From Terriglobia bacterium (GTDB lineage: Bacteria > Acidobacteriota > Terriglobia > Bryobacterales > Bryobacteraceae), in the NCBI GenBank assembly GCA_025350105.1, contig JANXYJ010000119.1, forward strand, positions 1-37,048: DNA of 37,048 nt, written 5' to 3'. The first letter of the stretch is position 1, and each line of letters starts with the position of its first letter. Positions 3,216 through 33,066 of the stretch are shown in pieces. Below the pieces are notes generated by a model. It was not told the origin of the DNA and searched no databases. It saw nothing but the letters and a program-made list of their open reading frames with translations. The position numbers and the translations under genes were made by a program.

Positions 3216-3233
3216 CGTGATCAACGTGATCAA
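3216..3233. repeat. Perfect 9-bp tandem duplication over the DUF885 stop codon
   Basis: CGTGATCAA occurs twice in tandem (3216-3224 and 3225-3233). The second copy contains the TGA stop of the minus-strand DUF885 gene (3230-3232), and the first copy repeats that stop just downstream. It is one of several stop-codon duplications in this window. Confidence 0.7.
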
Positions 3234-4906
3234 AGCGTTGGCGAATCGTTCCCCAACATGGCCCGGCGAACAATTTTGATAGGCGGATAACCTTGCTTCA
3301 GGAAAGCATCGTGAAATTCCTGCAGCGAGAATTGCGCGCCTTTCATTCTGCGATAATCTTCGCGCAGTTTCAGAATTTGCAATTTGCCAAGCGTGTAGTA
3401 AAGATAAGTGGGATCGGATGTGCCACGCTTGGTTTCGCGATCGGCAGTTTCGTGGGGCTGGTAGCATTCTTTCTCGAAGAAGTCGATGGCCTGTTGCATG
3501 TTTCGTTTGCCGGTATGCATCTCAATGCCGACGATGTAGCGGCCGTTGCGGAGCAGCGCATCCTGAATCTGCCCCAAGCGCAATTTGGGATCGTTGCTGA
3601 AGCCTTCGTCGAACATCATCTGTTCACTGTAATGCGCCCAGCCTTCAGCGTTAGATGCCGCGCCCAGGATCTTACGGACGCGGGATTGGATTTGCTGCAT
3701 CCACAAAAACTGCACGTAGTGGCCGGGATAGGCTTCGTGAATGGCGGTGGAAAGAATTGTGCCGCGATTGAAGGAGGCCATGAAACTCTCCACGCGTTCG
3801 GGTTTCCAGTGCTTCTCTGGCAAAGTTACGTTGAAGAATGCTTCCTTGGCAACACTCTCAAACGGGCCCGGCGTATCCATGGACGCAAACGTGGTCGCAC
3901 GCATGAAGGGCGGCGTTTCTTCCAAACGCGGCGGAACGGACGAAGGGATGGTCACGATTTTGTGGGCGGTGATGAAGTCCGTGATGAACTTCAGGCTGTC
4001 GCGAAAGGTTTGCAAAAGTTTATCGGGCGCGGGGTGATCTTTCTCGGTGTCCGCCAAAACCTGCTGCGGCGGATGGTTCTTGTCGATTAACGCGGCGGTT
4101 TCGCGGAATCTTTTTTGATTGGCATGCAGGTCCGCGTAGCCAATTTCCAGGAGGCGATCAAGCGGCGTATCCACCATTTCGTCATAAAGGAGTTTTTTGG
4201 AGTAATTGGCCGCGCCCAGGCGAAAATCCCCATTTGAGCGCGGCAGGACTTCGCTTTTCAGGAAAGTGTGGTAATCGTGCAGGGCCTTAATCACCGCAGC
4301 GTTGGAAGTTTTAAAGTCTGCCAGAAGTTTTGAATCCGTCACTGCCTGGAAAGCCAATGGGACATCATTCTCAAATAGAGAGATATTTCCCGGCAATTGT
4401 TCGATGGCAATTTCGGTTAATATTTTCGGCGGGTTTTTCAGATTGGTGCGGGCGGCGACCAACACTTGCGGCATCTTGCGCTCACGGGCAATTAACGAGC
4501 GCAAACGTTCTTCGGGTGGCGCGAAAGTCCGGCTCATGATGACGAAGGCGCTGTTGGTGATGCCGCTGGAGTAACGGTCCGGGTCCTGTTCCCACCAGCG
4601 GACGTTTTCGAGATCCAGCAGGGTGCCGCGAATGCAGGACAATACCAGATCGCGGTCCGGGCTTTCCGGAAGCTTGGCGAACTGAGGTTCGAACTGCTTT
4701 AGCTGGGCGATGCGTTTGTCAATGCCGGGGCGCGAGTAGTCTTCGATCTGGCTATCGTACTTGTGAACACCCAGTGAAGTGGCCATGGTGGGGTAGGTTG
4801 GCAGATAGTACTCATCGAAAAAGCGATCGCCGAGCGATTGGGCGTCCGCGCCCGCGAAGGTTGTGAAGAGCATGGCAAGAGGAATCCAGATTCGGTTGGT
4901 GTTCAT
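3230..4906 (-). CDS. Secreted DUF885 family protein (putative metallopeptidase-like)
   Basis: 558-residue protein with a signal peptide (cleavage near GADAQS). The motif HEAYPGHYVQ, near residue 389, is the hallmark of DUF885. It resembles a zinc-binding HExxH-type helix, and the family is often annotated as a putative peptidase without a defined substrate. Length is normal for the family (about 550-600). ATG at 4906 is chosen because it directly precedes the signal peptide. No strong Shine-Dalgarno sequence is visible. The gene diverges from tyrS, only 38 bp separating the two starts, and shares a palindromic -10-like element with it. Its stop codon lies in a tandem duplication. Family call is firm; enzymatic role is inferred. 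Confidence 0.88.
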   Translation of the reverse strand: MNTNRIWIPLAMLFTTFAGADAQSLGDRFFDEYYLPTYPTMATSLGVHKYDSQIEDYSRPGIDKRIAQLKQFEPQFAKLPESPDRDLVLSCIRGTLLDLENVRWWEQDPDRYSSGITNSAFVIMSRTFAPPEERLRSLIARERKMPQVLVAARTNLKNPPKILTEIAIEQLPGNISLFENDVPLAFQAVTDSKLLADFKTSNAAVIKALHDYHTFLKSEVLPRSNGDFRLGAANYSKKLLYDEMVDTPLDRLLEIGYADLHANQKRFRETAALIDKNHPPQQVLADTEKDHPAPDKLLQTFRDSLKFITDFITAHKIVTIPSSVPPRLEETPPFMRATTFASMDTPGPFESVAKEAFFNVTLPEKHWKPERVESFMASFNRGTILSTAIHEAYPGHYVQFLWMQQIQSRVRKILGAASNAEGWAHYSEQMMFDEGFSNDPKLRLGQIQDALLRNGRYIVGIEMHTGKRNMQQAIDFFEKECYQPHETADRETKRGTSDPTYLYYTLGKLQILKLREDYRRMKGAQFSLQEFHDAFLKQGYPPIKIVRRAMLGNDSPTL

Positions 4907-4931
4907 GCGTTTGGCCCAGTTAGCTTGACGT

Positions 4932-4943
4932 TTACAATTGTAA
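4932..4943. promoter_or_regulatory. Palindromic TTACAATTGTAA: shared -10 candidate for divergent tyrS and DUF885 genes
   Basis: This 12-bp perfect palindrome lies in the 38-bp gap between divergent starts and offers TACAAT, a 5-of-6 match to TATAAT, on both strands. On the plus strand TACAAT ends 6 nt before the tyrS GTG, which would give a leaderless mRNA. On the minus strand it would leave a leader of about 23 nt. The -35 elements are weak (TTTGGC at 17-nt spacing for tyrS). It could instead be an operator. Confidence 0.4.
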
Positions 4944-4944
4944 T

Positions 4945-6150
4945 GTGTCCTTTCTACCTGTAGCGGAACAGTTGGATTATTTGAAAAAAGGGTTCGCGGA
5001 AATCATTCGCGAAGAAGATTTGAAGCAGCGCCTGGCGGAGGCGGCCAAAACAGGAAGACCCCTTCGTGTGAAGGCGGGCTTTGATCCCACCGCGCCCGAT
5101 CTGCACCTGGGCCACACGGTTTTGCTGCGCAAAATGAAACATTTTCAGGACCTGGGCCATCAGGTTATTTTCCTGATTGGCGACATGACCGGACTGATTG
5201 GGGATCCGACGGGGCGTAACATCACGCGGCCGCCGATGACCCGCGAAGAGATTTTGAAAAACGCCGAAACCTATAAGACGCAGGTGTTCAAGATTCTGGA
5301 TCCGGCGAAAACCGAAATTCGTTTCAACAGCGATTGGTTGGAGCCGCTGAAGTTCGAGGACATGATCCGCCTGTGTTCGAAGTACACGGTGGCGCGAATT
5401 TTAGAGCGCGACGATTTCACGAAACGCCTGAAAGAGGGCACTGCGATTTCCATGCACGAGTTGCTGTACCCGTTGGCGCAGGGATACGACAGCGTGATGC
5501 TGAAGTGCGATGTGGAACTGGGCGGCACGGATCAGAAGTTCAATTTACTGGTGGGGCGAGAGTTGCAGCGCGACTCCGGCCAACCGCCGCAAATTGTGGC
5601 GACGGTGCCGCTGCTGGAAGGCACCGACGGCGTGGAGAAGATGTCGAAGTCGAAGGGCAACTACATTGGGATTACCGAAGCGCCGAAAGTAATGTTCCGC
5701 AAAGTGATGGGCATCAGCGATGGGCTGATGTGGCGCTACTGGGAACTGCTTACGGATTTGGCGTTGCCGGAGATCAACGCATTGAAGGCGCGCGAACCGA
5801 TGACGGTGAAGATGGAATTGGCTGCGCGCATCGTGACGGATTTTCATTCGGCCGCAGACGCAAAACAGGCTGCGGTGGATTTCGACCGCGAAGTGCGGCA
5901 GGGGGGCGAACCGGCGGACATTGAGACGGTACCGTTGCCCACCGATGCTCGCACGGCTAACGGTATTCAAGTTCCGAAGACGTTGGTTGGGGTGGGGCTG
6001 GCTCCGTCACGCACGGAAGCGGAGCGGCTGATTAAGGCGGGATCGGTGGAGATCAACGGGGAACGGTTCGTCGAGCTAAGCTATCCGGCGACAGCTGGCA
6101 CGCTGACCATCCGCGCCGGAAAGAAGTGGAAGAAGGTTATTATCGCGTAA
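4945..6150 (+). CDS. tyrS: Tyrosyl-tRNA synthetase
   Basis: Cytoplasmic class Ic aminoacyl-tRNA synthetase that charges tRNA-Tyr. 401 residues. The HIGH-type motif is HLGH (about residue 54), the KMSKS loop is intact (about 232), and a C-terminal S4 RNA-binding domain covers about 335-401 ([20 protein letters not shown]). The start is GTG; an ATG two bases upstream is in another frame and stops at once. The N-terminus from this GTG fits the family. No Shine-Dalgarno sequence is visible, and a TACAAT hexamer ends 6 nt before the start, so the mRNA may be leaderless. The stop is 2 bp from the convergent tonB stop. Confidence 0.97.
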
Positions 6151-6152
6151 GT

Positions 6153-6890
6153 TCATTGCGCGAGCGTAAACACCACATCAATCGGCGCGATGACTTCGAC
6201 CGGTTGTCCGTTCAGCACCGTTGGACGGTAGAGCCATTGGCGCACGGCGTCCACCGCCGCTTGCACTAAAAGCGGGTGGCCGCTGACCACTTGCAGTTGT
6301 TGAATGGTGCCGTCCCTGGCGATGATGCCCATCAGCCGAACCGTACCGGAAACACGTGTCACCACGGCCAAGCGCGGATATACGGGCAGAATCTTGCGAA
6401 GATTTTTGGCTGAGACCATTTCGCTGGTCATGCGCACGGGAGCGGTGGGCGGGACCGGTTTCACGATGGGAGTGAGCGGCGGCGGAGCGACGTCGTTGGG
6501 TGGAATGACGCTGAGATTGGCAATGTTGATTGCGGGACCGAGCGGCCCATCTGAGAGATTCGGAGGTGCTTCTCCTATAAAGGGAGACAGGTCCGGCGCT
6601 TTGGCTGGCGATAGGTTGGTGAAGTTCGGGACAAAAACGGGCCGCTGTGGCAGCAAACTACTGTGGCCTGGATCGGAAGGCGGCCTGGTGTTGGTGGACT
6701 CCGGCAAAGGCGCGGGCGTCAGCGGGGTGAATGTGGGCAGAGTCAGCGGGGTGAACTGCAACCGGTTGGTGTAGAGCAGCGGAAGCAGCAACATCGTGCC
6801 GATTCCCACGGCTTGCAGGGTGAGCGAAAGGCCTAGGGCTCCGGCGTTTTTCCGCAGAGTGGCATCGGGAAGCATGGATTGTTCGAACAT
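6153..6890 (-). CDS. tonB: TonB family energy transducer
   Basis: 245-residue protein with TonB architecture: a short cytoplasmic N-terminus, one membrane helix (about 18-40; LTLQAVGIGTMLLLPLLY), a Pro-rich periplasmic linker (about 45-150) and a C-terminal TonB domain (about 165-245) with YPRLAVVTRVSGTVRL and AVRQWLYRPTVLNGQPVE. It would pass proton-motive energy from an ExbB/ExbD complex, not present here, to outer-membrane receptors such as the one at 1-3059. ATG at 6890 is used; a second ATG five codons in is possible. It lies 148 bp downstream of the ABC ATPase on the same strand. Which receptor it serves is unknown. Confidence 0.88.
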   Translation of the reverse strand: MFEQSMLPDATLRKNAGALGLSLTLQAVGIGTMLLLPLLYTNRLQFTPLTLPTFTPLTPAPLPESTNTRPPSDPGHSSLLPQRPVFVPNFTNLSPAKAPDLSPFIGEAPPNLSDGPLGPAINIANLSVIPPNDVAPPPLTPIVKPVPPTAPVRMTSEMVSAKNLRKILPVYPRLAVVTRVSGTVRLMGIIARDGTIQQLQVVSGHPLLVQAAVDAVRQWLYRPTVLNGQPVEVIAPIDVVFTLAQ

Positions 6891-7002
6891 GCCTGAATAG
6901 ACACCGGGGTTGAGCGGAAAGTTCCCGGCGTGATTGCTTAGGCTGGTAGAAGGTCGGGCGCTGACTTACGTTCGCGGCTTGCTGTGGGTATTTAAGTGGG
7001 TG

Positions 7003-7065
7003 GTTTAAACCACGGGCCCGTCGCGCATGGTAGCTTGTTTAAACCACGCGCCCGTCGCGCATGGT
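7003..7065. repeat. 34-bp-period direct repeat duplicating the end of the ABC ATPase gene
   Basis: A 29-nt segment at 7037-7065 holds the last codons and TAA stop of the ABC ATPase. It is repeated at 7003-7031 with one mismatch and a 34-bp period. The downstream copy reads MRDGPVV-stop against MRDGRVV-stop in the gene. The outer copy also forms a perfect 14-bp palindrome, GTGGTTTAAACCAC, at 7000-7013. Confidence 0.8.
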
Positions 7066-7728
7066 TAAGATGCGATGCCCGTACGCCGCCGCTTCGGGAT
7101 TGTGCGTGATCATCAGAATGGTTTGTCCCAAGCGCGAATTCAGGTCGCGCAGCAGAGTCAACACGGCGGTGGAATTTTCGCTGTCCAGGTTGCCGGTGGG
7201 TTCGTCGGCCAACAGCAGCGCAGGATGATTCACCAATGCACGGGCAATCGCGACACGTTGTTGTTCACCTCCCGACAACGCTCGCGGTTTGTGATGCAGC
7301 CGGCCGGTTAGTCCTAACAGGCCCAACATGTCGTTGAACTGCGGATCACGCGGTCCCGTTTTGTGGGCGATGTGGCGAGCGATTTCGATGTTATCGGACG
7401 CGCTGAGGGTGGGCAGCAGGTTATATTTCTGAAACACAAAACCCACGGTGGTTTTGCGGAGATGCGTGCGCTCGGCTTCGCTCATGGCGAGGAGGTCACG
7501 ATTGTCAATGTGAATGGTGCCGGAGGTGGGCGGCGTCAACCCACCCAAAATATGAAATAGCGTGGACTTGCCGGAGCCGCTGGGTCCCACCACCGACACA
7601 AATTCCCCGCGGGCAACAGAAAGATCCACGCCACGCAAGGCGTGCACTTCGATCTCGCCAACTTTGTAGGTCTTTTTCAGATCGCGGATTTCGATCATGC
7701 TTGCATTGTTGTTTGCCCCGCTAGTCAT
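7039..7728 (-). CDS. ABC transporter ATP-binding protein, MacB/LolD type
   Basis: 229-residue nucleotide-binding subunit with Walker A GPSGSGKST (about 48-56), signature LSGGEQQRVAIARAL, Walker B LLLADEPTGN and an H-loop (MITHN). The sequence is typical of the LolD/MacB/FtsE group, which pairs with FtsX-like permeases in lipoprotein release, efflux or envelope remodelling. ATG at 7728 is preferred: it overlaps the permease stop by 8 nt (ATGACTAG), which indicates translational coupling. Alternatives are TTG 7743 and ATG 7698. The 3' end is duplicated downstream. The exact substrate is not evident. Confidence 0.93.
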   Translation of the reverse strand: MTSGANNNASMIEIRDLKKTYKVGEIEVHALRGVDLSVARGEFVSVVGPSGSGKSTLFHILGGLTPPTSGTIHIDNRDLLAMSEAERTHLRKTTVGFVFQKYNLLPTLSASDNIEIARHIAHKTGPRDPQFNDMLGLLGLTGRLHHKPRALSGGEQQRVAIARALVNHPALLLADEPTGNLDSENSTAVLTLLRDLNSRLGQTILMITHNPEAAAYGHRILTMRDGRVV

Positions 7729-8806
7729 AGGCCAGCGCCTCAATCGCGTCTTGCTTGGCGGCTTTCAGCCCAGGGTAGATTGCGCCGATCATGGAACCGG
7801 AAAGCGCAATCAACACGGCCCAGGGCCACCAGCGATAGACGATGAACATGGGCATGGTGGGGACAAACGTGCGCATGATCCATTGCGTGCCGTAGCTCAT
7901 CAGGATGCCGGCGATAGCGCCGACAACGGCCAGCAGAAATGTTTCACGCATCAGGATGCCCATGACGTAGCCTGGCGAACCGCCGAGCGCTTTTAGAATG
8001 CCGATTTCACGCGTGCGCTCCAGCACGGCGGTGTACATGGTGAGAAACACGATGAACAAACCGCCGATGACGGAAATGCCCACCACGACGTTGGTAAACG
8101 TCTTCAGCATGGGTACGCTATTCACGGAAATCAGCGATACGAATTCATCCACGGAAAAGACTTTGTAATCGGTCAGCTTGAGGTGGAGCGAATCGATCAC
8201 GGCCTGCATATTTTGCGGATCGTCCAATTTCACGTACACTACACTGACTTTGTTGGTGGCCGAATATTTTTCCTGCAGCGATTCCAGCGGCGCGAACAAA
8301 TGCGAAAGCTTGCCGGATTCCACCACTCCCGCTACGCGCCACTGCAAGCCCAGATTCAGAGTGGCGCCGGCGTGCAGTTTGTGGGCGCTGGCGTAGACGT
8401 CGTCGATCAACAAATCGTCGGGACCTTTAAATGGGCCGCCTTCGATGTAACGCAGGCCGGTGCTCATGGCGTTGAATTCGTCAAGATTAATGCCGGTGAT
8501 GGAATCGAAATTACCGATGGATTGGACCTTGGTGCCGGTGGCCAGCACGACGTGCGGCTCCTTGCGCACCAGACCGACAATGCCCTGCGGCATGTCGCCG
8601 GAAAAGGCGAGAACGGAACTGCCGGGCGGGCGCACCAGAATGTCCGCGCCGGTGCCGCGCGAACGCGTGGCCATGTCACCCAACACACCTTCGCTGACAC
8701 CCACCAACGTCAAAATCATGGTGACCTGAACGCCGATGGCGATGGCACTGAGGAGGGTTCGGATGGGGCGGTGCTTTAGATTTTCAACAACGAGACGATA
8801 GATCAA
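7721..8806 (-). CDS. ABC transporter permease, FtsX/MacB family
   Basis: 361-residue integral membrane protein: one N-terminal helix (about 17-38), a periplasmic MacB-PCD-like domain (about 45-235), then three C-terminal helices with the FtsX signature YTAVLERTREIGILKALGGS (about 265-285). It forms a transporter with the ATPase that follows. The start is TTG at 8806; an in-frame TGA lies a few codons upstream and no ATG or GTG fits the conserved N-terminus YRLVVENLKHRPIRT. It starts 38 bp after rsmE on the same strand. No periplasmic adaptor is encoded next to it, which makes a complete MacAB pump less likely. Confidence 0.92.
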   Translation of the reverse strand: MIYRLVVENLKHRPIRTLLSAIAIGVQVTMILTLVGVSEGVLGDMATRSRGTGADILVRPPGSSVLAFSGDMPQGIVGLVRKEPHVVLATGTKVQSIGNFDSITGINLDEFNAMSTGLRYIEGGPFKGPDDLLIDDVYASAHKLHAGATLNLGLQWRVAGVVESGKLSHLFAPLESLQEKYSATNKVSVVYVKLDDPQNMQAVIDSLHLKLTDYKVFSVDEFVSLISVNSVPMLKTFTNVVVGISVIGGLFIVFLTMYTAVLERTREIGILKALGGSPGYVMGILMRETFLLAVVGAIAGILMSYGTQWIMRTFVPTMPMFIVYRWWPWAVLIALSGSMIGAIYPGLKAAKQDAIEALAYD

Positions 8807-9564: not shown

Positions 9565-9565
9565 A

Positions 9566-11755: not shown

Positions 11756-11796
11756 AAAAAATGCGGCCATCCGGAGGGAAGAACCTGGATGGCCGC
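11756..11796 (-). terminator. Intrinsic terminator of the Gly/Tyr-rich protein gene
   Basis: Read on the minus strand, a perfect 10-bp stem GCGGCCATCC / GGATGGCCGC (11796-11787 and 11772-11763) with a 14-nt loop is followed by A and six T residues (11761-11756). This is the layout of a Rho-independent terminator for the minus-strand gene ending at 11851. The convergent folK stop is 8 nt beyond the T tract. Confidence 0.7.
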
Positions 11797-11837
11797 ACGA
11801 AAGATTGGCCGCGCGAAAGATCGGCCGCACGAAAGTT
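11790..11837. repeat. Three 16-bp tandem repeats
   Basis: Three tandem 16-bp units (11790-11805, 11806-11821, 11822-11837) with consensus TGGCCGCACGAAAGAT, differing at one to two positions each. They lie between the stop of the Gly/Tyr-rich gene (11851) and its terminator, so they would be in its 3' UTR. The first unit overlaps the terminator stem. Confidence 0.8.
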
Positions 11838-11850
11838 TTTATGGAATGAC

Positions 11851-13350: not shown

Positions 13351-15069
13351 CTACTGGCCCAAAAACTTGGCGATTTTGGCGGCGTTGCCTTCGGCGTAGG
13401 TCAGGCTCTGTTTGGCGGATTCGACGTCGCCGCCGCGGATGGACTGCATGGCTTCCTGCATCTGATAATCCATGCCAGTGCGCGATTGCACCATGTCGCC
13501 ACGCAAACCCAAACCTTGGCGCGACATCTGCTGTTCGATACGGCCCAGTCCGTCTTTCAACGCGGACGCTTTGATCGAGAGCTGATTGTAGCGTTCACGC
13601 AGCTCGTTTAGTTCCGGATTCACGGTTGGATTCCCAGGAGCCCGCGCGGGCGGAGATTGTACAACCGGTGACGGATTGGAAACGGCGGGTTCGGGCGCAG
13701 GCTGATGGGTCAAACTCTGCGCGCTCTTTACCGGCGTCGTCATTGACGGCACGACCATGTTGGTCGGCGTCAGATTCTGTCGCGGACGGCTAGGCAGTTC
13801 CCTCGGAGTAGACACCGGCGGCGGAGTAGAAACCGGCGGCGAAGCAGAAACCGAAGTGGACGCAATGGCTGTGGACCCAACCGTTTCGTTTGACGCGGGG
13901 ATTTGCGTTGGTGTTGGTGCTGGTGTTGGTACTGGCGTCGGCGCGGGTGATGTTGTATTGGCCACCGGTGCCGCCGCGCCACTCTTGCCGCCCTGAAATA
14001 GCTTGGGTCCTTCGATCACCGCAGCAATCAATACCGCCAAAGTTGCCAGCGATCCCAGCGCCATGTACAACCCACGGCGGCTGCCCGGCTGCGGAACCCG
14101 CGGTGGCGCGGAAAATGAGGCCGGTTGTGGCGTGCTCTGCGGCAATGCCGACGGCCCCGCAACCATTGGCCGCTGGACCGTCTGGGTTGGCGTTCCGAAG
14201 GATGGTGAGCCCGCCAACGGCATCGCAACCTCAGTTCCGATACTCGAAAGCGCTCCGCGAAAAGCCATTGCCGACTGAAAGCGATTTTCCGGTTCTTTCG
14301 CAATCGCCATCAGGATGATGTCGTTCAAATCCTGCGGCACGCCGGGGATCACTTCCATGGGAGCCACCGGCGGCTGCATCAAATGCGCGGACATTAATTG
14401 AAAATCGCTGTCCGCCATGAAGGGTCGGCGGCCCGTGACCATCTCGTAGAGTGTGATACCCAAGGAATAAATGTCGGCACGGCCATCGGGCTCGACGCCT
14501 TTGATCTGTTCCGGCGACATGTACAGCAGTGAACCTACCGCACCGCCCGCGCTGGTTAAACGCTGATCGGCCTTCATGCGGGCAATGCCGAAATCCATCA
14601 GCTTAACCACGCCCGAACTCGTCACCATGATGTTTGCGGGCTTGATGTCGCGATGCACCACTCCATGCTGATGCGCATAGGCCAGGGCATCCAGCACCTG
14701 CATAGCATACGAAATCGCGCTGCTCGTTGGAATCGCGCCCTGTTGCAGCAACTGTTCGACGGAGGTGCCATCGACAAATTCCAGGATCATCACAATCTGA
14801 TTGCCCACCTGCATGGCCGTGTTCAGCTTGGCGATGTTGGGATGATCGAGCGCGGCCTGCACCTTGATCTCGCGCAGAAACCGGTCGGCCAGGCCGGGCT
14901 CGCCTTCCAGATTCGGCAGCAGAATTTTCATGGCCTCGATGCGCTCAGAAATCACATTACGGACTCTGTACACCGCACCCATGCCGCCCTGGCCCAGGAT
15001 CTGCAGAATTTCGTAATCGCCAACGCGATCACCGGTCTTTATCGATACGGGCAGAGGAGACGGGTTCAT
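13351..15069 (-). CDS. Transmembrane serine/threonine protein kinase (Hanks type)
   Basis: 572-residue eukaryotic-like kinase. The cytoplasmic kinase domain (about 19-275) has the Gly loop LGQGGMGAVYRV, catalytic Lys in EAMKIL, the catalytic loop HRDIKPAN, the DFG metal site and the SPEQ motif; all key residues are intact. A Pro/Ala-rich linker leads to one membrane helix (about 332-352). The extracytoplasmic part is a Pro/Ser/Thr-rich spacer with TP(V/A)PTP repeats. A helical coiled-coil end (about 480-572) follows, and there are no PASTA repeats. ATG 15069 follows a good GGAG site. The CsgG-like gene ends 50 bp upstream and is probably co-transcribed. The signal sensed by the tail is unknown. 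Confidence 0.94.
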   Translation of the reverse strand: MNPSPLPVSIKTGDRVGDYEILQILGQGGMGAVYRVRNVISERIEAMKILLPNLEGEPGLADRFLREIKVQAALDHPNIAKLNTAMQVGNQIVMILEFVDGTSVEQLLQQGAIPTSSAISYAMQVLDALAYAHQHGVVHRDIKPANIMVTSSGVVKLMDFGIARMKADQRLTSAGGAVGSLLYMSPEQIKGVEPDGRADIYSLGITLYEMVTGRRPFMADSDFQLMSAHLMQPPVAPMEVIPGVPQDLNDIILMAIAKEPENRFQSAMAFRGALSSIGTEVAMPLAGSPSFGTPTQTVQRPMVAGPSALPQSTPQPASFSAPPRVPQPGSRRGLYMALGSLATLAVLIAAVIEGPKLFQGGKSGAAAPVANTTSPAPTPVPTPAPTPTQIPASNETVGSTAIASTSVSASPPVSTPPPVSTPRELPSRPRQNLTPTNMVVPSMTTPVKSAQSLTHQPAPEPAVSNPSPVVQSPPARAPGNPTVNPELNELRERYNQLSIKASALKDGLGRIEQQMSRQGLGLRGDMVQSRTGMDYQMQEAMQSIRGGDVESAKQSLTYAEGNAAKIAKFLGQ

Positions 15070-16300: not shown

Positions 16301-16328
16301 GATCAGCCGCCCAGTCGGATCAACCGCC
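16301..16328. repeat. 11-bp direct repeat duplicating the stop of the caspase-like gene
   Basis: GATCAACCGCC (16318-16328), which spans the TGA stop of the caspase-like gene, is repeated as GATCAGCCGCC at 16301-16311 (10 of 11 identical, period 17). Confidence 0.5.
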
Positions 16329-20606: not shown

Positions 20607-21299
20607 ATGAATCCACGAGGATTTGCACCGCGCCGCCCCAGAGTCCGGGAAAACGTTAACGAAGCGATCCGTGCGCGCGAAGTTCGCGCCGTATTCCCCG
20701 ACGGTTCCGTAGAAGTGATGCCCACGCACGAAGCCGTGCGCAAGGCCCAGGGAATGGGTCTGGATTTGATTCTGATCGCCCCTACCGCGGAGCCGCCCGT
20801 CGCAAAAGCGATGGACTACGGCCAGTGGCAGTACGAAAACAAGAAAAAGCAGCACGAAGCGAAACGCAAACAGCACATCATCCAGGTGAAGGAGCTAAAA
20901 TTCCGCCCCAACACCGATGATCATGATTACGATTTCAAGAAAAATCACGCCATCCGCTTCTTACAGGAAGGCAATCGCGTAAAAGCCATCGTGCAATTCC
21001 GCGGGCGCGAAATCGCGCACACCGATATTGGCCGCAAATTACTGATCCGCTTCTCGCAGGATCTGGCAACTTATGGTGTGGCCGAAGGCCAGCCGCGCAT
21101 GGAAGGCCGCAACGCCCACGTCATTGTCAGCCCGATTAAAGTGGTTCCGCCGCCGAAACCGGAAAAGCCGAAGCCGGCACCCGGGGCAACCTCCGGTGGT
21201 TCTGCGCAAAGTGGTTCTGCGCAAAGTGGTTCTGCGCCCGCAATGGCAAGTCCCGCGACGCCTTCACCGGCGCCTAAGCCTGAAACACCGCAGTCCTAA
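20607..21299 (+). CDS. infC: Translation initiation factor IF-3 with C-terminal extension
   Basis: 230-residue IF-3, which binds the 30S subunit, blocks 50S joining and checks the start codon. The N-domain (RVRENVNEAIRAREVRAVFP), the linker (DYGQWQYENKKKQHEAKRKQ) and the C-domain (KELKFRPNTDDHDYDFKKNH) are all present. About 45 residues beyond the normal end form a Pro/Ala/Ser-rich tail with a GSAQS repeat. ATG 20607 has no clear Shine-Dalgarno sequence. The usual rpmI and rplT partners do not follow; a convergent small gene does. Upstream, 268 bp without a gene hold nothing I can name. Confidence 0.95.
   Translation: MNPRGFAPRRPRVRENVNEAIRAREVRAVFPDGSVEVMPTHEAVRKAQGMGLDLILIAPTAEPPVAKAMDYGQWQYENKKKQHEAKRKQHIIQVKELKFRPNTDDHDYDFKKNHAIRFLQEGNRVKAIVQFRGREIAHTDIGRKLLIRFSQDLATYGVAEGQPRMEGRNAHVIVSPIKVVPPPKPEKPKPAPGATSGGSAQSGSAQSGSAPAMASPATPSPAPKPETPQS
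21198..21239 (+). repeat. 15-bp in-frame tandem repeat in infC
   Basis: GGTTCTGCGCAAAGT is repeated exactly at 21198-21212 and 21213-21227, with a third partial copy to 21239. It encodes GSAQS-GSAQS-GSA in the disordered tail of IF-3. Being in frame, copy changes would only alter tail length. Confidence 0.8.
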
Positions 21300-21989: not shown

Positions 21990-22030
21990 AGGAATTAATG
22001 GTGAAGGAAGTTAATGATGTGACGTTAATG
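21990..22030. repeat. Degenerate repeats over the obgE stop codon
   Basis: AGGAATTAATG (21990-22000) and AGGAAGTTAATG (22005-22016) are near-copies; the second contains the obgE TAA stop (22011-22013 as TTA). A further GTTAATG stands inside obgE at 22024-22030. The spacing of 14-16 bp suggests old tandem duplication. Confidence 0.4.
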
Positions 22031-23083: not shown

Positions 23084-23139
23084 TAAAAAGACAAAGGCCA
23101 GGAACCCACGGCGCGTTGGCACCGGCAGAATTCCTGGCC
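23084..23139 (-). terminator. Intrinsic terminator or attenuator between rpmA and obgE
   Basis: On the minus strand a perfect 9-bp stem GGCCAGGAA / TTCCTGGCC (23139-23131 and 23104-23096), with a 26-nt loop containing an inner CGG/CCG pairing, is followed by TTTGTCTTTTTA (23095-23084). It ends 24 nt before the obgE start, so it would separate rplU-rpmA from obgE or attenuate the operon. Confidence 0.6.
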
Positions 23140-23167
23140 CTAGCTTTTGGTCGTGCTAGAAATTACT

Positions 23168-23222
23168 CCGCAGCGTCGTTATTCTGCCGCGGCGTTATTC
23201 TGCCGCAGCGTCGTTATTCTGC
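23168..23222. repeat. 35-bp-period repeats copying the rpmA stop region
   Basis: A 20-nt segment is repeated exactly at 23168-23187 and 23203-23222 (period 35), with a shorter degenerate copy between (23187-23204). The rpmA end (codons Ala-Ala-Glu-stop, GCTGCAGAATAA on the minus strand) is echoed downstream by two GCGGCAGAATAA copies and a shorter GCGGAGTAA. Confidence 0.8.
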
Positions 23223-23471
23223 AGCAACGATACTGACAAACTTGCCCATGCGGCCCCGGTCGCGGAATTCGATGACGCCGGTGACCTTGGCAAACAGCGT
23301 GTCGTCCTTGCCCACGCCCACGTTGATGCCGGGCTTGATCTTAGTGCCGCGCTGCCGCACGATGATCGATCCGCCCGGAACAAACTGCCCGCCAAATGCT
23401 TTTACGCCCAGCCGCTGGGCATTGGAATCGCGGCCATTTTTGGAACTGCCTAAACCTTTTTTATGTGCCAT
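23214..23471 (-). CDS. rpmA: 50S ribosomal protein bL27
   Basis: 85-residue bL27, whose N-terminus reaches the peptidyl transferase centre. It reads [20 protein letters not shown], then [20 protein letters not shown] and [10 protein letters not shown], all canonical. There is no N-terminal pre-sequence of the Firmicutes type. It lies 30 bp after rplU and is probably co-transcribed with it. Its last codons are duplicated downstream. Confidence 0.98.
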
Positions 23472-24096: not shown

Positions 24097-25161
24097 GTGA
24101 AACAGAATAGCTTGAGACAAATTAGCGTTGGCATCCTGGGAACAGGCTGGTGCGGAGGCATCCGCGCGGTCGCGTCGTCCACCAGCCCTTGGGTGAAGGA
24201 CCTGCACATCGCCGAGATTAAAGAGGACCGTCTGAAAGAAGTGGCGGACCTGACCCGGCCGGTTACGGCCACTACGGACTATCGCAAAATCGTCGACGAC
24301 CCCAGTGTTGACGCCGTGATGATTTCAACCACGCCGGAGCCGACGCATTTCCCCATCGCCAAAGAGAGTCTGCTGGCAGGCAAGCACGTGTTTCTGGAAA
24401 AGCCGATCGCCATGAACCTGGACGAGGCGGACGAGTTGATCGCGCTGGCGCATGCGAAAAAGCTGTCGTTCACTATTGGCTATTCGCAGCGGTTCAATCC
24501 TAAATTTGCGTTCGTGAAACGGTCGATTGAAGACGGGACCATTGGCGAGCCGTGCAGCGCTCTGGTCAGCCGGCATATCACGCGCAATTTGGGGAAGAAG
24601 ATCGGCGGGCGCGTGAAGCTTTCGCCGGCCGCGATGGAAGCCACGCACGATATCGATTTTGTTTTATGGTGCCTGGCGCCGCGGCGTCCAGTAAAAGTTT
24701 ATGCGCAGGAAGTTCACAAAATCATGAAGGGGCAATACAACGTCCCCGATTGCGTGTGGATCATCGTGACCATGGACGATGGCACGGCCTTCACCATTGG
24801 CGCGGGTTGGGTGCTGCCGCCGGCGTATCCGAATTTTTCCTCAACCTGGATTGAGTTTGTGGGCACCGAAGGCGCGGTGATGGTGGACGATACGCATCGC
24901 GATGTCTACACCACTACTTTGCAAAAAGGCATTCAGTTCCCCATTTCAACGATGCCCGGCGAAAAAGTGAATCACGTTTACGCGGGTCCGATGGAAGCCG
25001 AAACTTTGCACTTTTTGGAATGCGTTGCGCTGGGCAAGCAGCCGTTGGTCACCGGCGAACAAGCGCGCCTGGTGATGCAGGTGTATCAGGCCGCGGATTT
25101 GTCGGCGGAGACAGGCATGCCGGTGGAATTGGCGAAGACGCTGGAGCCGTCTTTGGTGTAA
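24097..25161 (+). CDS. Gfo/Idh/MocA family NAD(P)-dependent oxidoreductase
   Basis: 354 residues from GTG 24097, chosen for its GGGAGG site 9 nt upstream; the open frame extends 36 codons further but through the promoter and repeats. It has an N-terminal Rossmann fold with VGILGTGWCGGIRA (binding loop), the EKPIAMNLDEADELI motif typical of the family, and a C-terminal alpha/beta substrate domain with GRVKLSPAAMEATHDIDFVL. The family oxidises or isomerises sugars, inositols and sugar acids; substrate unknown. MFS transporter and Kelch genes follow on the same strand, 213 bp and more downstream. The start codon and family are well supported. Confidence 0.93.
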   Translation: MKQNSLRQISVGILGTGWCGGIRAVASSTSPWVKDLHIAEIKEDRLKEVADLTRPVTATTDYRKIVDDPSVDAVMISTTPEPTHFPIAKESLLAGKHVFLEKPIAMNLDEADELIALAHAKKLSFTIGYSQRFNPKFAFVKRSIEDGTIGEPCSALVSRHITRNLGKKIGGRVKLSPAAMEATHDIDFVLWCLAPRRPVKVYAQEVHKIMKGQYNVPDCVWIIVTMDDGTAFTIGAGWVLPPAYPNFSSTWIEFVGTEGAVMVDDTHRDVYTTTLQKGIQFPISTMPGEKVNHVYAGPMEAETLHFLECVALGKQPLVTGEQARLVMQVYQAADLSAETGMPVELAKTLEPSLV

Positions 25162-25180
25162 GGCAGCGGTGTAAAACAGC
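25155..25180. repeat. 13-bp tandem duplication over the Gfo/Idh stop codon
   Basis: GGTGTAAGGCAGC (25155-25167) is followed at once by GGTGTAAAACAGC (25168-25180), 11 of 13 identical. The first contains the final GTG codon and TAA stop of the oxidoreductase; the second repeats GTG TAA downstream. Confidence 0.65.
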
Positions 25181-25374: not shown

Positions 25375-26697
25375 ATGTCGGCGCCGGCTAATTCCTTTCA
25401 GCAAACCAAACCCACCAAACGCCGCTGGTGGATTTTGTTCCTGATCAGCCTGATGTACCTGATCGCCTACATGGACCGCAGCAACATCTCCGTGGCGCAG
25501 CCGGAAATTGCCAAGGCGTTCGGCCTAAGCAAAACCCAAATGGGCGTAGTGTTGTCGGCCTTTACCTTAGCCTACGCGCTGGGGCAAGTCCCGGCAGGCT
25601 GGTTGGGGGACCGCTTCGGTCCCAAAAAAGTCTTGATGGTGATCATGTCCTGGTGGGCCGCCGCAGCGGCGCTCACCGGAGCGGCCAGCGGCATGAACTC
25701 TTTGCTGGGCGCGCGTTTCTTATTGGGCTTGGGCGAAGCTGGCGCGTTCCCCGTGGCCAGCCGGGGCATGCAGTTGTGGTTCCCCCGTTCCGAACGCGGA
25801 CGCATTCAAGGCACCACGCATTTCTTCAGCCGCTTCGCGGTCGCAGTCACGCCACTTGTCGCCGGCAGTATCATGCTGGCCTTCGGCTGGCGCGCCATTT
25901 TCTACATCTTCGGGTCGCTGGGCGTCATTTGGGCCGCCGCGTTCGCCATCATTTATCGCAATCGCCCCGAGGAACACGCCGGCGTAAACCGTGCGGAGCT
26001 CGCCGAAATTCGCGGCGTGAATCCCGACGGCAGCATCAAGGAATTAGGCGCTGTGTATCAACGCACCCCTTGGAAACAAATCCTGGGCTCCGCCAATATG
26101 TGGTACATCGCGCTCGGCTACGGCTGCTTTTTTTTCGGCACAAATTTCTATTTGACTTGGTATCCCACATACCTGCGTGAGCATCGTCATCTAACCGTGC
26201 AAGCCCTGGGACTGATCGGCTCGCTGCCTTTGTTCGCGGGCATGTTGGGAGATATTGTGGGCGGGTCACTCACGGACATCGCTTTTAAGCGCAGCGGCAA
26301 TGCCAAGTGGGCGCGCCGGGTTGTCGCGGCACCTGGATTTGTGCTCGCCGGCATCTTCGTCATCCCCGCGGCCATCACCGAAAGTGCTGGATTATCCGTT
26401 CTATTCCTGGCCATTTCCTTCTTCTTTTTGGAGTTTGTGATTGGCCCCGCCTGGGCCGTCCCCATGGATGTGGGCGGCCAGTTCAGCGGCACGGTCACCG
26501 GCATCATGAACATGGCGGGAGCGCTCACCGCCTCACTCACGCCGATTGTTTACGGCGGACTGTTTCAGCGCGGCTATTGGATTGCCCCGTTTTATGTATC
26601 CGCGGGCGTGTTGTTTCTGGGCGCGCTGGTCTGGCTATTCTTGATCGACCCCGAACGGAGCGTCGTTGAAAATACCATCGTTGAAAATACAAATTGA
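25375..26697 (+). CDS. MFS transporter, anion:cation symporter (ACS) family
   Basis: 440 residues from ATG 25375 with about 12 membrane helices. Key motifs are ISLMYLIAYMDRSNISVAQP (first helix, typical of ACS), GWLGDRFGPKKVLM (MFS motif A) and LLGLGEAGAFPVASRGMQLW. ACS transporters carry organic anions such as hexuronates, glucarate or phthalate in symport with protons. ATG 25294 is an alternative that would add 27 low-complexity residues. The Kelch gene starts 9 bp downstream, so the two are co-transcribed. The C-terminus ends in a duplicated VENT motif. Substrate is inferred to be an anionic sugar derivative from family and neighbours. Confidence 0.92.
   Translation: MSAPANSFQQTKPTKRRWWILFLISLMYLIAYMDRSNISVAQPEIAKAFGLSKTQMGVVLSAFTLAYALGQVPAGWLGDRFGPKKVLMVIMSWWAAAAALTGAASGMNSLLGARFLLGLGEAGAFPVASRGMQLWFPRSERGRIQGTTHFFSRFAVAVTPLVAGSIMLAFGWRAIFYIFGSLGVIWAAAFAIIYRNRPEEHAGVNRAELAEIRGVNPDGSIKELGAVYQRTPWKQILGSANMWYIALGYGCFFFGTNFYLTWYPTYLREHRHLTVQALGLIGSLPLFAGMLGDIVGGSLTDIAFKRSGNAKWARRVVAAPGFVLAGIFVIPAAITESAGLSVLFLAISFFFLEFVIGPAWAVPMDVGGQFSGTVTGIMNMAGALTASLTPIVYGGLFQRGYWIAPFYVSAGVLFLGALVWLFLIDPERSVVENTIVENTN
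26664..26690 (+). repeat. 12-bp direct repeat at the end of the MFS gene
   Basis: CGTTGAAAATAC is repeated at 26664-26675 and 26679-26690 (period 15, in frame), encoding VENT-I-VENT just before the stop. It resembles the stop-codon duplications at other genes, but here the reading frame was extended. Confidence 0.7.
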
Positions 26698-29511: not shown

Positions 29512-30095
29512 TTCGTCGTAGCCCGGAACCGCGCATACCAGGCATCGGTGGTGATGTTCATCCCGCCGGTCTGGCCCGTGGTTTTGTCAGTGCCCTCCAT
29601 CGCCATGTTGATCTGCATTTCCTTGGCGTTCAATCCCTGCACGGTTTTGGTTTGGCCCGTCGCCTTGGCCGTCACTTTGAACTGCGCCTGCACATCGTCC
29701 TTCTTGGTGGCGTCTTTATCTTTACTGCGGCTCTGCGCGCGGCTGGCCGCTTCCTCCATCTGCTGCTTCATCTCGGCAAAGGTCATCACCGAGTAAGTCT
29801 TCTTCGCCGTATCAATGGTGGTGATGCTTTCTTTGTCCAGGTCAATCACCGTGGTGCGATCCTTGGTGATCGTCGCCATGCGGTTGCCCTTCAGCAAGTG
29901 CGTGGAAACGATCGGATCCCGCGCCCCCCTGGCCAGCGGACCCAGCGCCTTCATCATATTGAACAGCGACCCGCCGGTCATCTGCGTGGTGTCCTGATAA
30001 GTGAAGTCCGCGCGCAACAGCGTGGAGGTACCGCATAACAGCGTGGTAAAAATAATCCCTTGAAACATCCATTGATACGACGTTGTGAATTTCAT
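29508..30095 (-). pseudogene. 5' part of a DUF4412-like secreted protein gene
   Basis: 195 codons from ATG 30095, which has a GGAG site and begins a signal peptide (FQGIIFTTLLCGTSTLLRA). The body resembles DUF4412-like periplasmic proteins with a beta-sheet N-terminal region (DFTYQDTTQMTGGSLFNMMK, TTVIDLDKESITTIDTAKKT). A charged Lys/Asp linker and TVQGLNAKEMQINMAMEGTD follow. It ends with TTDAWYARFRATTK-stop, where RFRATTK is out of register with the expected AVPGYDEV. The apparent break is a 2-nt insertion near 29533. ATG 30119 is an alternative start. The gene diverges from truB with a 35-bp gap. Confidence 0.6.
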
Positions 30096-30118
30096 AGAGG
30101 CTCCGACTGCTTTCATCA

Positions 30119-30124
30119 TACAAT
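30119..30124 (+). promoter_or_regulatory. -10-like TACAAT directly before truB
   Basis: TACAAT ends 6 nt before the truB GTG, the same arrangement as at tyrS. No Shine-Dalgarno sequence intervenes and no -35 is obvious. If used, the mRNA would start at or next to the GTG. Confidence 0.3.
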
Positions 30125-30130
30125 GCGTAG

Positions 30131-31096
30131 GTGGATGAAACCTTGACTCACGCCGCGTTGGCCGACGGCAAACATCACTTGGAACCCGTCCCCGGCGTCG
30201 TCATCGTCAACAAGCCCACCGGCTGGACCTCTCACGACGTCGTCGCCAAAATGCGCCGCATCGCCCGCACTCGCAAAATCGGCCATCTGGGCACGTTGGA
30301 CCCGCTCGCCACTGGCGTGCTCCCTTTGTTGATCGGCCGGGCCACTCGCCTCGCCCAATTCTTCACCCGCAACGACAAAGTCTACGAAGGGACCATCCAC
30401 TTCGGCTATTCCACCGACAGCTACGACGCCGATGGCCAGCCCACTTCCGCGCCGGCACAGGTAAAGCTCGATCGCGAAAAATTGAACGCCCTCTTCGACC
30501 GTTTCCGCGGAACCTTCCAACAAATGCCGCCCGCAGTGTCAGCGAAAAAAATCGGCGGCCGTCCCGCCTATGAACTGGCGCGCAAGAACCTGCCCGTCGA
30601 TCTCAAGCCGGTGGAGGTCACCGTCACATCGCTCGAAATTCTGGAAATATTGGATCCCTGCCGTGTCCGCATCCGCCTGCATTGCTCCGCCGGAACTTAT
30701 GTGCGCAGCATCGCGCACGATGCCGGCCAGGCGTTGGGCTGCGGCGCGTTTCTCGATCAACTGTGCCGCACCGCGTCCGGCGATTTTCGCCTCGACCAGG
30801 CCCGCACTCTGGACGAACTCGCTGCGATGTCAGGGCAGAATCGTTTTGCTGACGCCGTGATCCCCGCCGGCCATCTTCTGCCGCACTTCCCCAGCGAAAT
30901 CGTCGACTCCGTTACCGCCGCCCAAATCCGTCAGGGCCGCAACTTCCGCGTTTCGCCCTTTCTGGTCCGCACCGCCCTGAACAGCGAAGCAACCGACGCT
31001 GCCAATCCCATCAAGGCCGTTACTGCGGAAGGAGAACTGGTGGCCATCGGCGCACTGGTTCTGCCCCACGTCTATCATCCCATTCTGGTTTTCTAA
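30131..31096 (+). CDS. truB: tRNA pseudouridine(55) synthase TruB
   Basis: 321-residue enzyme that makes pseudouridine 55 in the T loop of tRNAs. Motifs: VIVNKPTGWTSHDVV, GHLGTLDPLATGVLPL with the catalytic Asp, YEGTIHFGYSTDSYDADG, and SAGTYVRSIAHDAGQALG. The C-terminus carries a PUA-like region (about 235-321). The start is GTG 30131 with about 20 residues before the conserved PGVVIVNKP, normal for the family. No rbfA or rpsO neighbours, unlike many genomes. Confidence 0.96.
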   Translation: MDETLTHAALADGKHHLEPVPGVVIVNKPTGWTSHDVVAKMRRIARTRKIGHLGTLDPLATGVLPLLIGRATRLAQFFTRNDKVYEGTIHFGYSTDSYDADGQPTSAPAQVKLDREKLNALFDRFRGTFQQMPPAVSAKKIGGRPAYELARKNLPVDLKPVEVTVTSLEILEILDPCRVRIRLHCSAGTYVRSIAHDAGQALGCGAFLDQLCRTASGDFRLDQARTLDELAAMSGQNRFADAVIPAGHLLPHFPSEIVDSVTAAQIRQGRNFRVSPFLVRTALNSEATDAANPIKAVTAEGELVAIGALVLPHVYHPILVF

Positions 31097-31189
31097 CCCT
31101 GCTGGCGGCCCATTCACATTAAGTGTGTTTAAGGCAACAGGTGAAATAAATTTCATCCTTTTCCTGCCGTATTGCAGGTCATTTCACCA

Positions 31190-31546
31190 ATGACTTCAAG
31201 TATCCTGAAGAGAGTGCTCCGCGATTCCCTATTGGCCCTGATTCTATTGCTGCCCGGCGCCACGCCGACTCACGCCTCCGCTGATGAGGTCGCCCAAACC
31301 GGTGATGCCTTCTTTGCCGGCAGCGTGGTCGAGTTTTCCGCCGGCAAAATCACCGTCACCCGTATCGTCCGCGGCCAGACCGAAAGCCGCAGTTTCAAAG
31401 TGACGCCGCAAACCAAAATGGACGGCAAACCGCAAAAAAACGTCCGCGTTACAGTAGGCTACGTTTCCGACGACAGCGGCGACACTGCCACCATGGTCGT
31501 CGTGCGCCCCCCGGTGCCTGCGCCGCCGCAAAAAAGCAAAAAATAG
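31190..31546 (+). CDS. Small secreted protein (DUF5666-like)
   Basis: 118 residues from ATG 31190; TTG 31172 is an alternative. It has a signal peptide (LRDSLLALILLLPGATPTHA) and then a single small beta domain, about 35-105 (FFAGSVVEFSAGKITVTRIV, VTPQTKMDGKPQKNVRVTVG). This resembles the short OB-like units of DUF5666, where an expression for a fixed constant follows a KITV strand. The C-terminus is Pro/Lys-rich (PPQKSKK). Function unknown. Its 3' end is duplicated downstream. Confidence 0.65.
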   Translation: MTSSILKRVLRDSLLALILLLPGATPTHASADEVAQTGDAFFAGSVVEFSAGKITVTRIVRGQTESRSFKVTPQTKMDGKPQKNVRVTVGYVSDDSGDTATMVVVRPPVPAPPQKSKK

Positions 31547-31572
31547 TCCCACCGCAAAAGAACAAGAAATAA
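31526..31572 (+). repeat. Duplicated 3' end of the small secreted protein gene
   Basis: The last seven codons including the stop (31526-31546, Pro-Gln-Lys-Ser-Lys-Lys-stop) recur at 31552-31572 as Pro-Gln-Lys-Asn-Lys-Lys-stop; 17 of 21 bases match, period 26. The second copy lies outside the frame of the gene. Part of the match reflects A-rich codons, so this is less secure than the other cases. Confidence 0.5.
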
Positions 31573-31593
31573 CGGCTTGCAACGAAAAAAACC

Positions 31594-33024
31594 CTACCCC
31601 GGCGTTTTCACCTTCTTTTTTCGCGCCGCCGCCCACCCGGCTTTTACAATTTGATGACTCCGCCCCAGCGCCAGCGCGCCTTCCGGCACTTCTTTGGTGA
31701 TCACACTGCCCGCGCCCACATAGCTATCTTCGCCAATCTCCAGCGGCGCCACTAAAGTCGAGTTGCTCCCCACAAACGCCCCCGCGCCAATCTTGGTCAT
31801 ATGCTTGTGCACACCGTCGTAATTACAAGTGATGGTCCCTGCGCCAATATTCACCCGCTCACCGATCTCGGAATCGCCCAGGTACGCCAGGTGCTGGCTC
31901 TTCGCGCCTGCGCCCAGCCGCGTTTTCTTTAGCTCGACGAAATTGCCCACCCGCGCCTCCGGCCCCACCTGCGCCCCCATCCTCAACCTAGCAAACGGTC
32001 CCACCTGCGCCCCCGGATCAATCCTCGAATCCGATACCAGCGTGTAAGCTTCGACAACCGCCCGATCGGCCAGTTGCGCTGAATCGAGAATCGCACCCTG
32101 CCCAATCCGGCAGTCCTCGCCAATCACGGTTTGATTCACCAAACGCGCGAACGGCTCAATCACCGTGTCCATCCCCACGCGTACTTGCGTGTCGATGCTC
32201 ACCGTCTCCGGCCGCTCAATCGTCACACCAGAGAGCATCAGCTCGTGCGTCTTGCGGTTACGCATGATGCGGTCAGCATCCGCCAATTCCACCCGTGTGT
32301 TGATGCCCAGCAGTTCGCTGGGGTCATCAATATGCATGTGTTTGACCACATGCCCATGCTGATTCAGAATCGCCACCATGTCGGTGAGATACAACTCGTT
32401 CGCCGGATTATTTGTCGTAATTTCGCCAATGTGCTTCCAAAGTAGCGCGCTCTTGAAAATGTAAATGCCGGAGTTAATCACCTTTACCTTCAACTGCGCT
32501 GGCGTCGCGGCTTTGTGCTCCACAATCGCCTGCACGTTGTTCTGACTATCGATGATCACCCGCCCATAGCCCGTCGGATCTTCCAGCGTTGTGGTGATCA
32601 TCGTCGCGGCGGCATCATCCTGTTCTTGTGCCTCCTGCAAGCGTTTCAATGTTGCCGCCGAAAGCAGCGGCGTATCGCCCATTAGCACCATCAGCGACCC
32701 GGTCTGCTCCGGATCCGCCTTCACCAGCACTTCACGCGCGCACTTCAACGCATGCCCTGTGCCTTTTTGTTCCACCTGCCTCGCAAAACTCACCCCGGTC
32801 GGCTTCAACAAGGCTTCCACCGCATCCGCCTGATGCCCCGTCACCACCGAAATGCGCGCCGCCGGCGCCACCGCACGTGCCGCCTGCACCACGTGCTCCA
32901 CCAACGCCAGTCCCCCGGCGCGATGCAATACCTTGGCCTGCTTGGAACGCATGCGGGTTCCTAAGCCAGCCGCTAAAATCACCACCGTTGTCTTGGTTGT
33001 CGTTTTGCTGCTTTTGCTCGTCAT
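31594..33024 (-). CDS. glmU: Bifunctional GlmU: glucosamine-1-phosphate acetyltransferase / GlcNAc-1-phosphate uridyltransferase
   Basis: 476-residue enzyme that makes UDP-GlcNAc for peptidoglycan and LPS. The N-terminal pyrophosphorylase domain (about 14-245) has VVILAAGLGTRMRSKQAKVL and LMVLMGDTPLL. The C-terminal left-handed beta-helix (about 265-455) has hexapeptide repeats and the acetyltransferase motifs GNFVELKKTRLGAGAKSQHL and GAGTITCNYDGVHKHMT. ATG 33024 follows a GAGAG site that lies inside a 21-bp repeat unit. An ~11-residue Ser/Thr/Lys lead precedes the conserved start. It lies 33 nt after yvcK on the same strand. Confidence 0.97.
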   Translation of the reverse strand: MTSKSSKTTTKTTVVILAAGLGTRMRSKQAKVLHRAGGLALVEHVVQAARAVAPAARISVVTGHQADAVEALLKPTGVSFARQVEQKGTGHALKCAREVLVKADPEQTGSLMVLMGDTPLLSAATLKRLQEAQEQDDAAATMITTTLEDPTGYGRVIIDSQNNVQAIVEHKAATPAQLKVKVINSGIYIFKSALLWKHIGEITTNNPANELYLTDMVAILNQHGHVVKHMHIDDPSELLGINTRVELADADRIMRNRKTHELMLSGVTIERPETVSIDTQVRVGMDTVIEPFARLVNQTVIGEDCRIGQGAILDSAQLADRAVVEAYTLVSDSRIDPGAQVGPFARLRMGAQVGPEARVGNFVELKKTRLGAGAKSQHLAYLGDSEIGERVNIGAGTITCNYDGVHKHMTKIGAGAFVGSNSTLVAPLEIGEDSYVGAGSVITKEVPEGALALGRSHQIVKAGWAAARKKKVKTPG

Positions 33025-33066
33025 TTTGCTCTCAATTGAATCCGCTTTGCTCTCAATTTAATTCGC
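33025..33066. repeat. 21-bp tandem duplication linking yvcK and glmU
   Basis: Two adjacent 21-bp units (33025-33045 and 33046-33066), 19 of 21 identical. The gene-proximal one holds the last codons and TAA stop of yvcK. Each carries the purine run ATTGAGAGC; the copy next to glmU serves as its ribosome-binding site. Duplication of the yvcK end thus created the present spacer. Confidence 0.8.

Follow-up and report, generated by a model that had tools for sequence, protein, structure and literature searches.

Short tandem duplications at gene 3' ends in a Bryobacterales genome probably mark the edge of permissive spacer

Why should the sequence around a stop codon be repeated beside it at one gene after another? 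The question is raised by a stretch of 37,048 nucleotides from a Terriglobia bacterium of the order Bryobacterales (contig JANXYJ010000119.1 of GenBank assembly GCA_025350105.1), referred to here as the window, in which an earlier note had listed nine genes with such repeats at their 3' ends. That note saw in the repeats a likely property of the genome and offered two origins for them, growth of spacers through local duplication close to gene ends or selection for tandem stops. The window makes up the complete contig C115 of an assembly of 206 contigs and 4.74 Mb that is 96.5% complete (G000 below). The analysis described here makes it probable that short tandem duplications are abundant in this genome and are filtered by purifying selection, the cases at stop codons representing the edge of permissive spacer and not back-up signals.

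All gene ends used here come from a simple Markov gene caller, which found 692 genes at a coding fraction of 78% in the sample taken from G000. This sample comprises the window and up to 20 kb from the beginning of each of contigs C1 to C60, 886 kb in all or roughly a fifth of the genome. Each of the nine gene ends was compared with 400 shuffles per site in which both sides of the stop were shuffled separately, with a floor of p=0.0025, and the resulting p-values are uncorrected for the picking of nine among 36 gene ends. The nine cases are as follows.

7003..7065, minus strand: duplication spanning the stop of the ABC ATPase gene (7039-7743, minus strand), 28/29 identical at period 34, p=0.0025 (floor); the copied TAA is out of frame.
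23168..23232, minus strand: repeat at the stop of rpmA (L27; 23214..23471, minus strand), three copies of a 16-19-bp unit at spacings of 16 and 19, with two extra TAA, out of frame; 20/20 match at period 35, p=0.0025 (floor).
33025..33069, minus strand: 21-bp tandem duplication over the stop of yvcK and the spacer to the next gene, TCA standing for the stop in the second copy; 22/24 match at period 21, p=0.0025 (floor).
26661..26692, plus strand: 15-bp in-frame tandem duplication in the MFS gene, directly before the uncopied stop at 26695-26697; 13/13 match at period 15, p=0.0025 (floor).
3216..3233, minus strand: exact 9-bp tandem duplication at the DUF885 stop, 9/9, p=0.0075.
16301..16328, minus strand: weak repeat at the stop of a caspase-like gene, 10/11 at period 17, out of frame, p=0.032.
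31526..31572, plus strand: weak A-rich repeat at the end of the gene for a 118-amino-acid protein, 17/20 at period 26, out of frame, p=0.037.
25155..25180, plus strand: 3' end of the Gfo/Idh gene, 7/7 match only, p=0.077, chance level.
22010..22030, minus strand: 3' end of obgE, 7/7, p=0.10, chance level, the partner copy lying upstream within the gene and out of frame.

Pfam confirmed the identity of the DUF885, ABC ATPase (ABC_tran), caspase-like (Peptidase_C14), obgE, rpmA (PF01016), Gfo/Idh, MFS (MFS_1) and yvcK (CofD domain) products, while the 118-amino-acid protein matched no Pfam family. The list of nine is thus upheld in part: four cases are strong (ABC ATPase, rpmA, yvcK and MFS), DUF885 ranks as fair, the caspase-like and 118-amino-acid genes are marginal, and Gfo/Idh and obgE stay at chance level. 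Across the 36 window stops tested, three (ABC ATPase, rpmA and yvcK) reached a repeat score of at least 10 when identity of the copied codon was not demanded.

Whether stop codons are special was addressed by scoring repeats genome-wide at stops and at other positions. The exact-codon score requires a period of 6-60, a copy that covers the anchor codon and a second one downstream of it, and a score of at least 10; a looser score, which does not demand an identical codon and has a threshold of at least 12, was added since the exact-codon score misses yvcK with its copied codon TCA. By the exact-codon score, repeats are found at 18/688 stops, 3/663 starts, 20/3948 in-gene codons and 79/3830 spacer positions of G000, and in 14/2060 swapped joins of gene tail and spacer and 1/2064 shuffles. 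Stops exceed shuffled sequence (p=1.8e-10), in-gene codons (p=1.8e-6) and starts (p=0.0014), but their rate equals that of spacer positions (p=0.39). The looser score gives the same picture, with 23/688 stops, 7/663 starts, 15/3948 in-gene codons, 120/3830 spacer positions and 0/2064 shuffles, and p=0.72 for stops against spacers. Equality with random spacer positions was the outcome named beforehand as refuting repeats specific to stops, and that claim is not upheld. Upstream copies of the stop were found at 1/688 stops only in G000. Elsewhere the exact-codon score picks out 1/319 stops in G011, a relative of the same genus (p=0.011 against G000), 2/279 in G022, of the same order, and 1/169 in E. 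coli.

The rate of repeats as a function of distance describes a boundary, with a step at the stop and neither a peak nor a target there. In 274 genes with spacers of 60-600 nt, 0-3 matches are seen at each offset from -150 to -15, followed by 4, 9 and 11 at -10, -6 and -3 and 13 at the stop itself; downstream, 9-14 matches are found up to +40 and afterwards the rate lies at 1.6-4.1%. On the other side of the spacer, in a set of 346 starts, 8-11 matches are found from -80 to -30; the number drops to 2 at the start itself and stands at 5 at +3.

The reading frame provides the second line of evidence. Tandem duplications counted strictly (a unit of at least 12 bp with mismatch of at most 10%) have units divisible by three in 57/58 cases within genes and in 45/90 within spacers. 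Spacer units are mostly of 10-18 bp and range up to 33 bp; units of 36 bp or more were not found by the strict count in G000, and Tandem Repeats Finder (TRF) lists three of 36-39 bp. As for copy number, 65/100 arrays in spacers or at their edges have about two copies, some of them imperfect, and 35/100 about three or more. A single shuffle of the 886 kb yielded 1 unit of at least 12 bp in spacers against the 90 real ones, and 3 in genes against 58; together with the 18/688 stops set against 1/2064 shuffles, these counts refute chance matching in composition-biased sequence for the class as a whole, for which it is scarcely tenable. Chance does stand for the weak cases, since obgE and Gfo/Idh are indistinguishable from shuffles and the caspase-like and 118-amino-acid genes are marginal, and in-gene units of 10-11 bp are likewise at chance level (19, fewer than the 32 in one shuffle). 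An artefact of the assembly of this metagenome-assembled genome has to be considered as well, given that G000 is in 206 contigs and that the window ends within a 17-bp array. It is nevertheless highly unlikely, as assemblers are blind to reading frame and could not have kept nearly all in-gene units at multiples of three, the copies at the ABC ATPase gene and at yvcK differ by substitutions, and other fragmented assemblies of the genus contain few strict duplications.

The earlier note had further proposed that eight of its nine cases carry the stop into the spacer and so provide back-up stops, which may be selected. This does not hold. The stop triplet recurs downstream of DUF885, the ABC ATPase gene, the caspase-like gene, rpmA and Gfo/Idh, and, by eye, in altered form after the 118-amino-acid gene (TAG to TAA), but the periods of the out-of-frame copies are 34, 17, 35, 13 and 26; DUF885, with a period of 9, is the sole case among the nine with an in-frame copied stop (TGA at codon +3), the yvcK copy has lost its stop and the MFS gene has no copied stop at all. 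Throughout the sample, 4/17 stop-spanning periods are divisible by three (p=0.45), and among 436 genes with spacers of at least 33 nt no enrichment of in-frame stops was found over the next ten codons: such stops occur in 110 genes, compared with 121 and 139 genes for the other two frames. A survey by Ho and Hurst, in the part of it that was available, reports additional stops to be scarce in eubacteria (PMC6764699). The extra triplets soon after some primary stops here resemble such additional stop codons, and differ from them in being neither in frame beyond chance nor enriched. The suggestion that back-up stops arise by duplication and are selected as a fail-safe against read-through is accordingly rejected as very improbable, despite the several recurring triplets and the in-frame TGA of DUF885.

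If stops are not the target, it has to be asked whether the genome itself is unusual. The strict count gives 148 duplications in 886 kb of G000 (16.7 per 100 kb), compared with 7 in 400 kb of G011 (1.8), 6 in 400 kb of G022 (1.5) and 4 in 200 kb of E. coli K-12 (2.0). In 80 loci around obgE from relatives, totalling 1125 kb, 45 were counted (4.0 per 100 kb; p=2.7e-20), a number that includes a 12-bp match at one obgE position in several loci. The density in G000 is therefore about nine times that of G011 and about four times that of the relative loci, and the view of the repeats as a property of the genome is supported to this extent. Most other relatives were sampled thinly (27-100 kb each), but two of them likewise exceed G011, namely G003 with 10 duplications in 100 kb (p=5e-4) and G012 with 11 in 82 kb (p=3e-5). 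The 14 remaining sampled congeners have 16 strict duplications in 527 kb (3.0 per 100 kb), their single densities lying between 0 and 9.4 on samples of 27-40 kb. G026 (40 kb) lies outside the strict counts and has a TRF total of 20.0 per 100 kb. In a tree of the relatives, much of which is weakly supported, the branch joining G000 to G003 and G002 (the latter not in the sample) has 88% support. In TRF totals, G011, G022 and E. coli stand at 10.8, 14.5 and 13.5 per 100 kb, and in spacers alone TRF finds 78.8 per 100 kb in G000 compared with 11.8 in G011.

Single gene ends were compared as well. The rpmA repeat is absent at the rpmA stop of all 18 relatives examined, their loci oriented alike, and the yvcK repeat is absent at the yvcK stop of all 19 examined. 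By eye, two congeners have tandem repeats of their own just past these stops, G014 at rpmA and G006 at yvcK, where the exact-codon score is 0; at yvcK, G014 has an exact-codon score of 9. The yvcK stop overlaps the next start (as ATGA or GTGA) in 12/18 congeners by eye, while in the window the two genes are separated by 33 nt, of which 21 are the second copy of the 21-bp duplication. Judged from its sequence, yvcK is thus an instance of spacer growth. Of the proposal that spacers grow by local duplication near gene ends, the growth is supported by the density of tandem duplications and by yvcK; the gene end as a special site is not, as the rate at stops equals that in spacers and the profile is a step. 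By eye, a similar inverted motif 'ggccagggg ... ctggcc' follows rpmA in G001, G006, G011, G012 and G015 and at about 23130-23150 of the window, and is perhaps a shared small element or terminator.

The following account is proposed. G000 would accumulate short tandem duplications, in spacers mostly with units of 10-18 bp, and purifying selection would then sort them: genes would keep nearly only those of a multiple of three, the surroundings of starts would retain few, and spacers would retain them. A duplication running through a stop would alter no protein, the first copy retaining the original stop, and because of this the permissive zone would start at the stop codon itself. Extra stops would arise as by-products and mostly fall out of frame. 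We infer from the pattern that the step at stops is due to selection, and the duplications themselves may originate by backward slippage or template switching with little flanking homology, followed by growth in copy number; in 14 of 42 perfect two-copy spacer duplications there is no junction homology.

How the high density arises can be read in two ways. It is suggested tentatively that in a lineage within this genus tandem duplications of about 10-18 bp, corresponding to one to two helical turns, arise at a raised rate and with little homology at the junctions. Alternatively, duplications may form at an ordinary rate and be removed less efficiently in this lineage, through weak selection or a low deletion rate. 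Such weaker removal would agree with the coding fraction of only 0.78 given by the caller for G000 and with an excess that extends into genes, where the strict density is 8.3 per 100 kb against 1.3 in genes of G011; it is nonetheless rather unlikely, as selection is visibly effective in keeping the frame of in-gene units and in leaving few repeats at starts, and as G011 has few duplications although the caller assigns the two genomes comparable coding fractions (0.78 and 0.75).

Several results weigh against the account of abundant duplication filtered by selection. The looser score is also up in the swap control (43/2060). Within the same spacers, the stop with 13/274 exceeds the later offsets with 52/1999 (odds ratio 1.9; p=0.053), which leaves room for a mild real excess over the first 40 nt of the spacer. 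A process tied to gene 3' ends, such as transcription termination or convergent conflict, that makes duplications preferentially at stops would account for a rate that is highest from the stop to about +40 and mostly lower beyond. On the other hand, the profile shows a step with a plateau, stops as a whole do not differ from spacers by either score, and upstream of starts the spacer rate remains near 2-5% up to about -30, consistent with erosion of the far end of spacers by promoter constraint; we consider a 3'-end process improbable. The supply of duplications is also less clear-cut than the strict count would suggest. In a low-threshold TRF count, G006 (37.6 per 100 kb), G012 (36.6) and G010 (35.0) are level with G000 (36.7), and G007, G018, G013 and G014 reach 27-30, although these congener samples are of 27-82 kb and their repeats lie mostly in genes; the high state is accordingly not unique to G000. 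Spacer units divisible by three exceed the expected third (p=0.001), which indicates that some coding DNA is left among the called spacers, with perhaps a quarter of the spacer cases lying in missed genes. Mean junction homology in the 42 perfect two-copy cases is 3.1 nt, above unaided chance, so that some homology, or third copies since lost, are likely to be involved even though duplication can do without flanking repeats. Finally, checks of PolA 5' nuclease, Ku, MutS1 and MutL revealed no mutational cause.

Among these candidates, loss of the PolA 5' nuclease is rejected, the nuclease being present in G000 and in 29/31 genomes. End joining is not needed, for Ku is present in G000 and was not found in the high-count genomes G003 and G012. 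Full MutS1 was not found in G000, nor was either neighbour of the gene in G003 (G003:C13 35707-38244) in searches made without a positive control, and with the neighbours missing too an assembly gap (96% complete) fits as well as loss of the locus. MutL is present in G000. Loss of mismatch repair is in any case no explanation, since G003 and G012 carry MutS1 with their high counts.

The duplications at stops are accompanied by others of the same class. The window contains ten strict duplications, of which two span a stop (rpmA and yvcK) and one directly precedes a stop (MFS). Further tandem repeats in the window are the following.

11791..11838, no strand assigned: a 16-bp unit in three tandem copies, located in the spacer that follows the HPPK gene and away from its stop, a member of the class unconnected with a stop.
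13804..13841, minus strand: 18-bp tandem duplication inside the called gene 13351-15069.
21195..21238, plus strand: 15-bp in-frame tandem duplication in the C-terminal tail of IF-3.
36904..37048, no strand assigned: 17-bp tandem array with 8.5 copies visible, upstream of the gene at 35395-36900 and running off the contig end.

The IF-3 gene (called at 20718-21299) has a long tail past the IF3_C domain with 15-bp in-frame tandem duplications at 21138-21243. The end of contig C57 (L058 6160-6283) carries the same 17-bp unit as the end of the window, the exact two-unit pattern occurring in no other contig, and it is probable that C115 and C57 adjoin in the genome, kept apart in the assembly by the array, which lies immediately upstream of the gene at 35395-36900. 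With the exception of this 17-mer, common to the ends of the two contigs, the units listed differ by locus, and a fixed repeat family is not supported. At L016 (G000:C15), positions 3320-3467, the 3' end of a gene for a MutS paralogue is covered by an array of ten copies of a 15-bp unit; each added unit brings another TGA, and the copy number might vary. Stop usage in the 692 called genes is 253 TAG, 241 TAA and 198 TGA, and TAG as the commonest stop is unusual for a bacterium of 57% GC. Positions 1-3200 of the window hold about 3.2 kb without a convincing gene by the caller, including a 402-amino-acid open reading frame (474-1682) without a Pfam family.

Similar patterns have been described in other systems. 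Like bacterial minisatellites or variable-number tandem repeats, the arrays are head-to-tail units of 10-35 bp in spacers, some with many copies (36904-37048; L016:3320-3467); unlike them, they are widely distributed in the genome, mostly as two copies. The nearest published pattern encountered, as far as the available part of that paper goes, is that of the Borg extrachromosomal elements, in which repeat units within genes are divisible by three and intergenic ones mostly are not (PMC9879509). Shared with Borgs are the many locus-specific tandem repeats, strongly different between related genomes, and the in-gene units divisible by three; the present case differs in being a bacterial contig with rpmA, obgE and infC and no extrachromosomal element, and in spacer arrays that are mostly two-copy, sometimes imperfect, with units mostly of 10-18 bp. 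The TAACTGA direct repeats of Beggiatoaceae, in the available part of their description, consist of one fixed heptamer that recurs (PMC4679880); they too are intergenic direct repeats in a bacterial genome, whereas the units here vary by locus apart from the 17-mer at two contig ends. None of the literature matches listed dealt with short tandem duplications at the stops of bacteria or in Bryobacterales, in a search in which subscription journals were mostly outside the scope.

In conclusion, what appeared to be a signal at stop codons is recast as the product of mutation supply and purifying selection, which together would draw the edges of genes, the permissive zone opening at the stop and closing before the start. 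If the lineage does have a raised duplication rate, this would rewrite spacers and add in-frame peptide repeats to proteins, and the growth of spacers at 3' ends would be a steady flow of mutations. The strict count shows the state to vary among congeners, being high in G000 and, on small samples, in G003 and G012, and low in G011, so that comparative genomics could pinpoint a responsible repair or replication gene. Should the raised supply be real, the several-fold differences between congeners would offer a natural comparison for the control of duplication and for the growth of spacers and C-terminal tails.

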